From Arenicellales bacterium (GTDB lineage Bacteria > Pseudomonadota > Gammaproteobacteria > Arenicellales > JAHEKD01): 64,000 nucleotides of DNA. Positions 34,101 through 44,857 of this stretch are shown here, piece after piece. Under the pieces are notes generated by a model. It was not told the origin of the DNA. It worked only from the letters and a program-made list of their open reading frames with translations, and did not search any database. The DNA lies in NCBI GenBank assembly GCA_028284225.1, contig JANQSD010000015.1:1-64000 (forward strand), written 5' to 3'. How positions within the stretch are numbered: the stretch's first letter is position 1; each line of letters starts with the position of its first letter. A program made the translations under genes and the position numbers.

Positions 34101-34305
34101 AAACATCCTTAAATGTCCGCGCCAGAACATGATGAATGCCAGGTTGACCGTTAGCTGTTGGCGGACCTTCGCAGAATGAAAAGCGCGGTTTACCTTCGCT
34201 TTGTTTTATTGATTGTTCGAAAATATTATTCCTATGCCAAAAATCGAGCACATCCTGTTCAATTTGTGGGCCGTTATAGCGGCTTTCTACGTCTTTAAAT
34301 CCCAT
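31159..34305 (-). CDS. ileS: Isoleucyl-tRNA synthetase, type 2, GxHH variant
   Basis: A class Ia synthetase of 1048 residues. The length, the start MGFKDVESRYNGPQIEQDVL and AGWDTHGLPVEHQIEKEL place it in the eukaryotic-like type 2 group rather than the ~940-residue type 1 of most proteobacteria. KMSKS is intact at residues 593-597. The HxGH signature is replaced by G56-I57-H58-H59 (codons 34140-34129), an exchange of the first and third positions. In type 2 enzymes this GxHH form has been linked to very high mupirocin resistance. The usual ribF and lspA neighbours are absent. A T-box with an Ile specifier lies upstream of the preceding gst gene. Whether a type 1 copy exists elsewhere cannot be told from this window. 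Confidence 0.97.
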   Translation of the reverse strand: MGFKDVESRYNGPQIEQDVLDFWHRNNIFEQSIKQSEGKPRFSFCEGPPTANGQPGIHHVLARTFKDVYPRYKTMRGYYAPRKAGWDTHGLPVEHQIEKELKIFDKKLIEEEVGVGEFTRRCRDSVMRYIGEWEKMTQRMGYWVNLEQAYYTLDNDYIESVWALLKQIWDKGLIYQGYKVVPYDPRIGATLSSHELAQGYKEIVDPAITVRFRLSDDPTVSFLAWTTTPWTIPSHQFLVVHPDIDYVYAKLEDETVILAKDLLEQVLGEQTYEITKTIKGNELVGKTYQRPLDYLADEHPQVTFRVYAADFVTTEDGTGIVHCAPAYGAEEMPIALENGIPIVHGVGLDGYFKPEVMPVAGKFFKDADPILIDVLQEKGVLFKNEQYTHNYPHGWRTGDPIIYYAKNAWYIRTTAIKDRMVELNNTINWVPETIKQGRFGNWLENNIDWALSRERFWGTPLPVWTDGEGDMICIGSVAELEELCGRPISDIDFHRPAIDEITFEKDGKTYRRVPEVIDCWFDSGAMSYAQWHYPFENQEEFEQHFPADYICEAIDQTRGWFYTLHAIGSLVSDSVAYKNVICLSHIVDQHGKKMSKSLGNIINPYDVFDTVGADPLRWYFLARIAPEGQKRISIDIVSDVASNFINTLWNTYAFFIMYAKLDNIDLNKNVAVDQRPEIDRWALALLHKTISVTTEAMDAYDAKTAGEAIESFVDQLSNWYIRRNRRRFWKAKASDDKQSAYLTLYECLNAIQKLIAPFMPFLAERIYQNLTCSIDANAPESVHLCVWPELNPAWKNDLLVEEFDDVQRIIYLGRAAREQSKVKVRQPLSRLLLRVPNALAQQAAEKHRQQLMEELNVKSIEFLPADASLVQYRIKPNLPRIGKLYGRQIPAIKQALLEADSRGIAAAVAKKENFELSLGNQSLSFSPEDVLVETESAQGYSCAESNGFLVGLDTALDETLIREGLARELVRTIQDARKQAGLEISDRINLAIDGSDTIKQVVEEFESYIIEETLTNDLVSAENLSKGYKIEKTLDEHNWLIKLVKSEN

Positions 34306-34318
34306 AACTAATACCTAA

Positions 34319-34963
34319 CTACTTTACAACTTCGGATAATTCAATCACATGCAGTTCTTCGGCTGCGGCTGAAAACCATTGCTTCATATGTTTATCATTC
34401 AAAACATGCTGCATATATTTGGAGCATGTTTGATTTAATTCAACACCATAAGTGTTGAATCGGCTCACGATAGGTGCGTACATGGCATCGGCAATACTGA
34501 AATCTCCGAATAGCCATGGCCCTGGGTGATTTTCCTCCAGGCAGTTTTGCCAAATGGATTGAATACGGTCTATTTCTTGCTGAATTGGAGCAGTGATGGA
34601 AACATGTCGTCCCACTGCACGGCAATTCATAGGCATATTTTCTCTAATTAGACTAAAGCCAGAATGCATTTCATGGCTAATCGATCTGGCTAATGCTCTT
34701 GATTGCGAATCTTGTGGCCACATCAATGGACTGACTTCCGCTATATATTCACAAATTGCTAGTGAATCCCAGATAGTCAATGCATCACTGATCAATACCG
34801 GTACTTTCCCGGAAGGCGAATAGGGTGCAAGCGCTTGTTGATAGCCATCTACATACAGCGGTATGACTAGCTCTTCAAATTCTATTTTTGCTTTTTTCAT
34901 TACCAACCAGGGTCGCAGCGACCAGGACGAGTAATTTTTGTTGCCTAAAATTAGTTTATACAT
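34319..34963 (-). CDS. Glutathione S-transferase family protein
   Basis: A 214-residue GST. The N-terminal thioredoxin fold starts MYKLILGNKNYSSWSLRPWL (probable catalytic Ser in SSWS), with the glutathione-binding GKVPVLI and DSLAICEYIAE segments. An all-helical C-terminal domain contains WLFGDFSIADAMYAP. I start it at ATG 34963, eight bases past a GGTG. A longer frame to 35026 would begin inside the T-box terminator and is not credible. It is the first gene after the T-box and 13 bases before ileS. Confidence 0.9.
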   Translation of the reverse strand: MYKLILGNKNYSSWSLRPWLVMKKAKIEFEELVIPLYVDGYQQALAPYSPSGKVPVLISDALTIWDSLAICEYIAEVSPLMWPQDSQSRALARSISHEMHSGFSLIRENMPMNCRAVGRHVSITAPIQQEIDRIQSIWQNCLEENHPGPWLFGDFSIADAMYAPIVSRFNTYGVELNQTCSKYMQHVLNDKHMKQWFSAAAEELHVIELSEVVK

Positions 34964-34975
34964 AGTAGTTTCACC

Positions 34976-35011
34976 AATAAAAATCCCGGATGTTGTAACG
35001 CAACATCCGGG
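34976..35011 (-). terminator. T-box regulated intrinsic terminator
   Basis: CCCGGATGTTG and CAACATCCGGG arms (11 pairs, five-base loop), followed on the minus strand by ATTTTTATT. The 5' arm shares CCCGG with the antiterminator, which is what makes the two folds exclusive. It lies 22 bases before the gst start. Confidence 0.93.
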
Positions 35012-35245
35012 ACGTTTGATTCTCAACGCGGTACCACCCGGTTTTACTGATTTTTCACAAAACCAGCCTTAATCACTGCGATAACAGCGATAATCCTGTT
35101 TCGGGGATTAGCCGTCTTAACTTACTTGAAAAAACTCGTTCAGCCAGCAGCTCCAGGGTGATTTTCAGCAGGGTTTGCTTCAGGGCTTGCACCATCCCCT
35201 GATCGCTAAAAGCAAATAAACCGACTTACTCGTCCCTTTCAACGC
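34977..35245 (-). promoter_or_regulatory. Class I T-box riboswitch, isoleucine (AUC) specifier
   Basis: Read on the minus strand, every hallmark appears in order. GAAAGGGACGAGTAAG opens stem I (35240 on). The AGCGA bulge (35206-35202) and GATGGTGCAAG distal loop sit within CAGGG/CCCTG arms. Specifier ATC is at 35162-35160 in the context GAAAATCACC, then GGAGCTGCTGGCTGAAC. AAGTAAGTTAAGACGG and TTATCGC mark the linker and stem III. The T-box CCGGGTGGTACCGCG is at 35041-35027. Its CCGGG can pair with CCCGG at 35011-35007 as antiterminator, or that CCCGG joins the terminator. The TGGT bulge matches an A discriminator plus CCA, as in tRNA-Ile. Uncharged tRNA-Ile should therefore turn on gst-ileS. 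Confidence 0.96.
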
Positions 35246-35249
35246 TTTA

Positions 35250-35255
35250 TCTATA
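35250..35255 (-). promoter_or_regulatory. Possible -10 of the T-box leader
   Basis: TATAGA on the minus strand, placing the start near 35243, just before the conserved T-box opening. The -35 is poor because the upstream T run of a terminator occupies it. Confidence 0.4.
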
Positions 35256-35265
35256 CTCGAATTTA

Positions 35266-35314
35266 CCAAAAAAAAGTAAGTATATAAACCAGAATTACTG
35301 GTTTATATACTTAC
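35266..35314 (-). terminator. Long perfect intrinsic terminator upstream of the T-box
   Basis: Two perfect 17-base arms (GTAAGTATATAAACCAG and its complement, 35276-35314) with a five-base loop, followed on the minus strand by eight T. It should end transcription coming from the exported-protein gene at 36038-35565 and insulate the T-box unit. Confidence 0.9.
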
Positions 35315-35531
35315 CCCGGCCTTGTGCCGGGACGATAAAGAGATAACGCAATCCCGGCCTTGTGCCGGGGTCTCATTGAGCATGCAGAGACTTCTTAAGT
35401 GAATAGCCCCAACTTTGAGTCTGTAGCTCCTTGAGAAAATAGAGATTTAATTAAAAAGATTCCCAGTCTTAAATCTGAACCACTTAAAAGAGCAGGAATT
35501 CAATTAAAAAGATCCCGGCATTAAAGCCGGG
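35315..35531. repeat. Cluster of short GC palindromes
   Basis: CCCGGCCTTGTGCCGGG occurs twice (near 35315 and 35354), and a variant CCCGGCATTAAAGCCGGG lies near 35513, in otherwise AT-rich DNA. AATTAAAAAGAT also recurs near 35449 and 35493. These look like REP-type palindromes in the 3' region of the exported-protein gene. I see no coding sequence. Confidence 0.65.
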
Positions 35532-35564
35532 ACAAGTGTAGGAACGAGTTTTAGTTTTTAGATT

Positions 35565-40260: not shown

Positions 40261-40289
40261 TTGCTTAAGCCCCATATGTTGTGTATTCT
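40261..40289 (+). promoter_or_regulatory. Sigma-70 promoter of the cobalamin riboswitch
   Basis: TTGCTT and TATTCT separated by 17 bases, with the start expected near 40296, right at the beginning of the riboswitch. DNA between the SDR stop (40081) and here is AT-rich and holds nothing else I recognise. Confidence 0.6.
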
Positions 40290-40295
40290 CGCTGC

Positions 40296-40436
40296 TGGTG
40301 TTAATGGTTAAGGGAAATCGGTTAAATGCCGATGCTGCCCCCGCAACTGTAAATGGTGAGTTTATTTCAGTACCACTGGGCAACCGGGAAGGTGAAATAA
40401 GCGTTCTAGCCGTGAGCCAGGAGACCTGCCGTTAGC
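40296..40436 (+). promoter_or_regulatory. Cobalamin riboswitch
   Basis: The conserved order of the adenosylcobalamin-type aptamer is readable: AAGGGAAATCGG, TGCTGCCCCCGCAACTGTAA, CCACTGGGCAACCGGGAAGG, and the B12 box GAGCCAGGAGACCTGCC at 40414-40430. A hairpin CCGAAC/GTTTCGG at 40448-40465 follows and could act in a translation-type expression platform. The regulated gene is the unknown small protein at 40542, not a familiar btuB or cob gene. Confidence 0.95.
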
Positions 40437-40476
40437 GAATGTTATGACCGAACGGGGTGTTTCGGCGGGAACCAAC

Positions 40477-40575
40477 ATGACATTGCTCTTCAAAAATTTG
40501 TTCAGTTTCCGTCCTGCCCTGGCATTAAATGGAGATAAACCATGCCAGCACGACAAAATAATGTTTCTAATCTAG
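40477..40575 (+). other. Possible 32-codon leader ORF behind the riboswitch
   Basis: An ATG eight bases after GGCGGG opens a 32-codon frame (MTLLFKNLFSFRPALALNGD onward) that overlaps the start of the 114-residue gene in another frame. It could be a leader peptide coupling riboswitch state to translation, or chance. Confidence is low. Confidence 0.25.
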
Positions 40576-40886
40576 TTGTATTTCCAGGCTGCGATCCCAA
40601 AGCCAAGCTAAGCCATATATTTTTAAACGACCAAATCAACAATAAAGCCGAATTGGTGATATTGAATTGGTTGGTTGCCTTGCCGAGTGCAATTGATCCG
40701 GCATTTGCAGCTCGATCGGTTTTGATAAAACTTGAAGCGGAAAAACAATCGCTCAGTAAAGATCAACGTAACTTACTCACGTTGCTGCGTGAAATTTCTA
40801 ATCATCCTCGCCAAAAGTTGCTCAAGTTGGCGGATAGAAATGATCGAGACAAGCGCCGCAGAAACTGGTTGAGGCGTACGCAGTAG
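40542..40886 (+). CDS. Small protein of unknown function under B12 riboswitch control
   Basis: I do not recognise this 114-residue protein. ATG 40542 has GGAG seven bases upstream. The N-terminal half is mixed (NLVVFPGCDPKAKLSHIFL, with a single Cys). The middle is hydrophobic and helical (ELVILNWLVALPSAIDPAFA). The C-terminal third is strongly basic (RDKRRRNWLRR at the end), suggesting a nucleic-acid or acidic-partner contact. There is no signal peptide and no clear membrane span. Control by cobalamin is inferred from the leader. Confidence 0.7.
   Translation: MPARQNNVSNLVVFPGCDPKAKLSHIFLNDQINNKAELVILNWLVALPSAIDPAFAARSVLIKLEAEKQSLSKDQRNLLTLLREISNHPRQKLLKLADRNDRDKRRRNWLRRTQ

Positions 40887-42640: not shown

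Positions 42641-44857
<2,217 letters not shown>

Follow-up and report, generated by a model that had tools for sequence, protein, structure and literature searches.

An isoleucine T-box leader preceding a type 2 isoleucyl-tRNA synthetase gene in the gammaproteobacterial order Arenicellales

T-box switches that sense uncharged tRNA-Ile are textbook elements of Gram-positive bacteria. T-box leaders have been listed in genomic surveys for Firmicutes, Actinobacteria, Chloroflexi, Deinococcus-Thermus, and Geobacter (PMC3766115, PMC2494555), and a T-box of an ile tRNA ligase gene has been reported in Dehalococcoides (PMC2494555). Whether such scattered occurrences result from transfer or from common ancestry was left as an open question (PMC3766115). 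According to established T-box biology, uncharged tRNA docks at the specifier and at the bulge and holds the antiterminator, which charged tRNA cannot do (PMC7583486). A search of the open-licence literature returned no report of a gammaproteobacterial T-box, although database entries may already exist.

The window analyzed here, a stretch of 64,000 nucleotides from an Arenicellales bacterium (contig JANQSD010000015.1), was described in an earlier note as carrying a complete isoleucine class I T-box. The Rfam covariance model agrees with this description: positions 35251-35005 of the minus strand match RF00230 over the full model (1-219) with 115.8 bits (E 6.5e-25), the gathering cut-off being 93 bits, and 45 of the 46 model pairs are standard pairs. 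The leader indeed lies in the previously given span (34977-35245), but reaches a few bases further upstream, to 35251. It is the only T-box detected in the whole genome (4.09 Mb).

All elements named in the earlier note were found in the order given there: GGGACGAGTAAG, AGCGA, GATGGTGCAAG, the AUC specifier within GAAAAUCACC, AAGTAAG..ACGG, GGGUGGUACCGCG, the antiterminator, and the terminator (Table 1). The assignment of AGCGA to the double T-loop module follows the T-box literature (PMC7583486). The specifier is followed by a purine (AUC-A, 35162-35159), and the codon type agrees with the downstream ileS. The 3' arm of the antiterminator overlaps the 5' arm of the terminator in CGUCCCGG, which is common to both; since the two structures share one strand, their helices are mutually exclusive, as a class I T-box requires.

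Table 1. Features of the T-box leader and the downstream genes (window coordinates)
Feature	Position	Strand	Evidence
Class I T-box leader, stem I to antiterminator	35005..35251	-	RF00230, 115.8 bits; covariation, 11 homologues
AGCGA, first half of the stem I distal double T-loop module	35203..35207	-	Invariant in 11 aligned gammaproteobacterial leaders
GATGGTG, second half of the stem I distal module	35190..35196	-	Strong conservation in alignment
AUC specifier (isoleucine), within GAA-A-AUC-A-CC	35160..35162	-	Aligned to the Rfam specifier position
Stem III region, ACGG..CCCG	35102..35114	-	Model helix CGG/CCG
UGGU acceptor-end bulge, complementary to 5'-ACCA-3' (A73-CCA) of tRNA-Ile	35033..35036	-	RF00230 alignment
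Antiterminator, CCGGG(UGGUACC)GCGUU ... AACGUCCCGG	35008..35040	-	Fold of isolated region, -12.3 kcal/mol
Intrinsic terminator, GUCCCGGAUGUUG-CGUUA-CAACAUCCGGGAU + U tract	34975..35013	-	12 bp
GST-like ORF, 214 aa, first gene 3' of the T-box	34319..34963	-	Pfam GST_N/GST_C
ileS2, isoleucyl-tRNA synthetase, eukaryote-like type 2, 1048 aa	31159..34305	-	TIGR00392, 946 bits; trees
GIHH in place of the class I HIGH motif, IleRS2 residues 56-59	34129..34140	-	Translated sequence

Comparison of 11 aligned gammaproteobacterial leaders with 500 shuffles revealed 89.8% paired cells (76.5% in the shuffles) and 76 double-sided changes (25.6 in the shuffles). None of the 500 shuffles reached the observed level on any measure; thus, chance is excluded for the leader structure, and the T-box structure is kept by compensatory change. 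The A-U-C specifier is invariant in all 11 aligned leaders and is also present in the other leaders listed, and the UGGN bulge was observed together with the AUC specifier throughout the homologues. Judging from its sequence, the leader appears to be a canonical class I transcription-terminating T-box that would respond specifically to tRNA-Ile.

A simple scan upstream of the T-box gave no convincing sigma-70 promoter. In the stretch that separates the T-box from the gene upstream of it (window 35273-35533, minus strand), there are several GC-rich palindromes of the CCCGGCACAAGGCCGGG type, as well as a U-tailed hairpin of 20 bp. Elsewhere in the window, a cobalamin riboswitch was observed on the plus strand (40279-40447, RF00174, 101.9 bits); the next sizeable frame on that strand is a 114-aa ORF (40542-40886), which is followed by a LysR regulator and then by a peroxidase-family gene (42650-44857).

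The cognate tRNA was read in two relatives carrying the T-box: their tRNA-Ile(GAU) ends in A-CCA and therefore fits both the AUC specifier and the UGGU bulge, so that the earlier claim of specifier, bulge, and ileS agreeing on tRNA-Ile stands. In the draft of the window genome, tRNA-Ile(GAU) was not found; the E. coli tRNA-Ile as query matched just tRNA-Val and tRNA-Met, a search by tRNA-Ile pattern returned nothing, and there was no tRNA-Ile(GAU) among the tRNA genes examined. The gene is probably missing from the draft together with its rRNA operon. In the proposed mechanism, when isoleucyl-tRNA is scarce, uncharged tRNA-Ile would make two contacts, one between the GAU anticodon and the AUC specifier and the other between the free ACCA end and the UGGU bulge. 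Docking of the tRNA would stabilize the antiterminator (CCGGG..CGUCCCGG) and block the overlapping terminator, and transcription would then continue into a two-gene unit, gst and ileS2. With charged tRNA-Ile, the 3' end would stay undocked and the terminator would form.

The ileS gene that had been placed downstream of the leader is present; however, the first gene after the T-box is the GST-like ORF, and ileS starts 13 nt after it. The match of this ORF to the NCBIfam glutathione transferase model is below the cut-off. The ORF was not seen beside ileS2 in relatives; it had no tblastn match at other T-box loci among the loci compared, and no relatives of it were found on viral contigs. By its place between the T-box and ileS2, the GST-like gene has apparently been put under T-box control.

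Besides the intervening gene, two further features of the locus extend the earlier description: the encoded enzyme is of the IleRS2 type, and it is the sole IleRS found. The protein is 43-68% identical to IleRS2 of many phyla, whereas its identity to the order's IleRS1 is about 32%; MupA/MupB-like profiles score high on it, yet below their cut-offs. Its GIHH motif falls within the G/AXHH pattern of mupirocin hyper-resistant IleRS2. In tested IleRS2 enzymes, GXHH is tied to mupirocin hyper-resistance, and replacement of a HIGH-type motif by GXHH in other IleRS2 makes the Ki for mupirocin two to three orders of magnitude higher (PMC10485003). The GIHH motif thus predicts that the window IleRS2 is insensitive to mupirocin, and intrinsic mupirocin insensitivity is predicted in these bacteria.

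The other class I synthetase matches in the genome, a 25-contig draft of 96% completeness, are ValRS and a LeuRS-sized protein. With IleRS1 of a relative as query, nothing was matched but the window IleRS2 (32%) and, more weakly, proteins such as ValRS; a 938-aa frame considered as a candidate IleRS1 was rejected, being ValRS. In a relative the gene order is murJ-ribF-ileS1-lspA-ispH, whereas the window genome has murJ-ribF-lspA-ispH, intact on one contig, and the 195-nt gap between ribF and lspA contains no ileS1 remnant above chance. This gap (L181 4050-4265, G000 contig C23) is bounded by a perfect MITE-like inverted repeat of ~20 bp (AGCCTGCATATTGCACCAGT), the right arm of which overlaps the lspA start as called. 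Since ileS1 is absent both from the assembly and from its operon, it has been lost, and ileS2 is, to judge from the assembly, the sole IleRS gene. The gene content of the genomes indicates that a foreign-type ileS2 has replaced the native ileS1 in part of this gammaproteobacterial order.

The distribution of the T-box was examined in 60 genomes of the order and in 369 genomes sampled from the class. In the order, IleRS2 was observed in 28 genomes and IleRS1 in 29; neither was detected in 3 genomes, and no genome has both. T-boxes were found in 23 genomes, all of them among the 28 IleRS2 carriers, and in none of the 29 genomes with IleRS1. The expectation that the same leader precedes ileS in related genomes was thus borne out: among the IleRS2 carriers of the order, 23 of 28 have it, as does one genome from a different order. 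All 23 T-boxes of the order are located before ileS2, with an intervening gene in the window only. By the generic RF00230 model, 2 of the 60 genomes exceed the Rfam cut-off and most T-boxes of the order score below it; the latter still carry the AUC specifier and the core and are found at the same location. In the class-wide sample, 16 of 369 genomes have an IleRS2-grade match, and the T-box was observed in 2 only, the window genome and G225 of another order. The examined members of the ~45% IleRS2 group gave no T-box signal, Rfam having been run on three of them.

Five of the 28 IleRS2 genomes of the order lack a T-box match, which shows that the T-box is dispensable. One of these loci is cut by a contig end, and the other four belong to family f8, where no trace of a T-box was seen upstream of ileS2 even at permissive thresholds. 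No T-box is detectable upstream of several IleRS2 genes of the same clade (L126, L127, L130, L131, L030, and L034), and secondary loss is the probable explanation for them.

A different modification was observed in family f3, where ten leaders (L016-L019, L021-L023, L025, L026, and L113) have kept the T-box and the AUC specifier and have no U-tailed terminator; L121 of the same family retains it. Stem I is also kept in most f3 leaders, and most of them have GCGCG or CGCGCG, which can pair with the T-box core, directly before the start codon. When folded, three f3 leaders scored no better than shuffles (z -1.4 to +1.0), and so a switch from transcriptional to translational control in this family is put forward as a possibility.

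In two trees, the gammaproteobacterial IleRS2 proteins linked to T-boxes form one clade with support 100, which falls with Chloroflexota enzymes (support 96); the stem branch to the nearest Chloroflexota is long (0.43-0.68). When Rfam was run on eight ileS2 loci, six exceeded the cut-off, five of them from Chloroflexota and one labelled cyanobacterial. The latter is an Rfam-positive T-box before an IleRS2 gene (L055 3068-3336) on a contig labelled Leptolyngbyaceae cyanobacterium, its origin being given by the label alone. A second gammaproteobacterial IleRS2 lineage (L172-L179), also with GXHH, groups with Rhodothermota and Ignavibacteriota, and no T-box was seen there. The existence of two separate lineages means that IleRS2 entered Gammaproteobacteria at least twice. 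Of the two, only the lineage with T-box-bearing relatives has the T-box, as joint movement of RNA and gene would predict. Most likely, the T-box and ileS2 were co-transferred, as suggested by their shared presence and by the tree of the enzyme rather than of the RNA. The transfer and retention proposed in the earlier note are supported by the single IleRS2 clade among T-box-bearing Chloroflexota enzymes, by the presence of the T-box in 23 of 28 genomes, and by the disappearance of ileS1 from its operon.

The GXHH motif, linked to hyper-resistance (PMC10485003), and the existence of bacteria with two IleRS enzymes would also suit an ileS2 serving as an inducible resistance spare, activated through the T-box whenever mupirocin or isoleucine starvation blocks a housekeeping IleRS1. 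We rejected this very improbable idea since the genome yielded no IleRS1; ileS1 is also missing from the ribF-lspA locus, and both types do not coexist in any of the 60 genomes of the order. An ileS2 read mainly from another promoter, or a T-box surviving as an unresponsive, degenerate relic, would fit the relatives that lost the T-box while keeping ileS2 and the lack of a clear promoter in the window. This reading is very improbable given the full Rfam score, every functional motif being intact, including both the antiterminator and the terminator, and the strong compensatory change across homologues.

A misbinned or contaminating contig from a T-box-bearing phylum might be suspected because the genome is a draft in 25 contigs and T-boxes have otherwise been reported from Bacillota, Actinomycetota, Chloroflexota, and Deinococcota (PMC3766115). 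The T-box/ileS2 pair, however, is found again in 22 further genomes of the order and in one from a different order; the IleRS2 proteins of these genomes form a single clade with branch lengths spread among its members, genome G001 of the same genus has an IleRS2 79% identical to that of the window, and a genome without ileS1 needs ileS2. Contamination is therefore extremely improbable. We consider it very likely that a class I tRNA-Ile T-box controls gst and ileS2, that T-box and ileS2 were acquired together from a Chloroflexota-like donor, and that ileS1 was lost. An ancestor within Gammaproteobacteria would have received both jointly, and after the subsequent loss of the native ileS1 the T-box would tune the only IleRS of the cell.

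More tentatively, and with distinctly less confidence, the T-box and the GXHH-type ileS2 may be regarded as one self-regulated cassette from such a donor that displaced ileS1 across a large part of the order, reached at least one other order, and diversified. The T-box would then have been lost in some descendants, a GST gene captured in the lineage of the window, and the terminator lost in f3, with control there perhaps becoming translational via CGCGCG.

A tRNA-sensing RNA has apparently moved between phyla together with its gene, and the new host lineage has kept it upstream of an essential gene. The transfer is directly testable because one can read the lineage that received the gene, the native gene that was displaced, and the relatives of the enzyme. 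The leader itself is a T-box of the ordinary kind; its host is unusual, its history can be read unusually well, and the news lies in the lineage and in the gene replacement.

Class I T-boxes of Bacillota ileS leaders (RF00230) share with the window leader the long stem I, the double T-loop module, the specifier loop, stem III, the T-box sequence, the choice between antiterminator and terminator, the specificity for tRNA-Ile, and the ileS target. The window differs from them in its gammaproteobacterial host, in having one T-box per genome rather than many, and in the GST-like gene before ileS. The leuA T-box of Geobacter and Pelobacter likewise comes from bacteria then classed as Proteobacteria, but it precedes a leucine biosynthesis gene in a deltaproteobacterial lineage (PMC2494555), whereas the window T-box precedes ileS in Gammaproteobacteria. 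The translational ileS T-boxes of Mycobacterium and Nocardia have the same tRNA-Ile specificity and target; they act on ribosome binding and mostly have a short stem I (PMC7583486), whereas in the window leader stem I is long and the terminator carries a U tail. The ileS2 T-boxes of Chloroflexota, for example at Anaerolineae loci, belong to the same RNA family and precede IleRS2 enzymes with GXHH that are the nearest relatives of the window enzyme; protein identity to them is about 48%, and the window clade is distinct and monophyletic, with a long stem branch.
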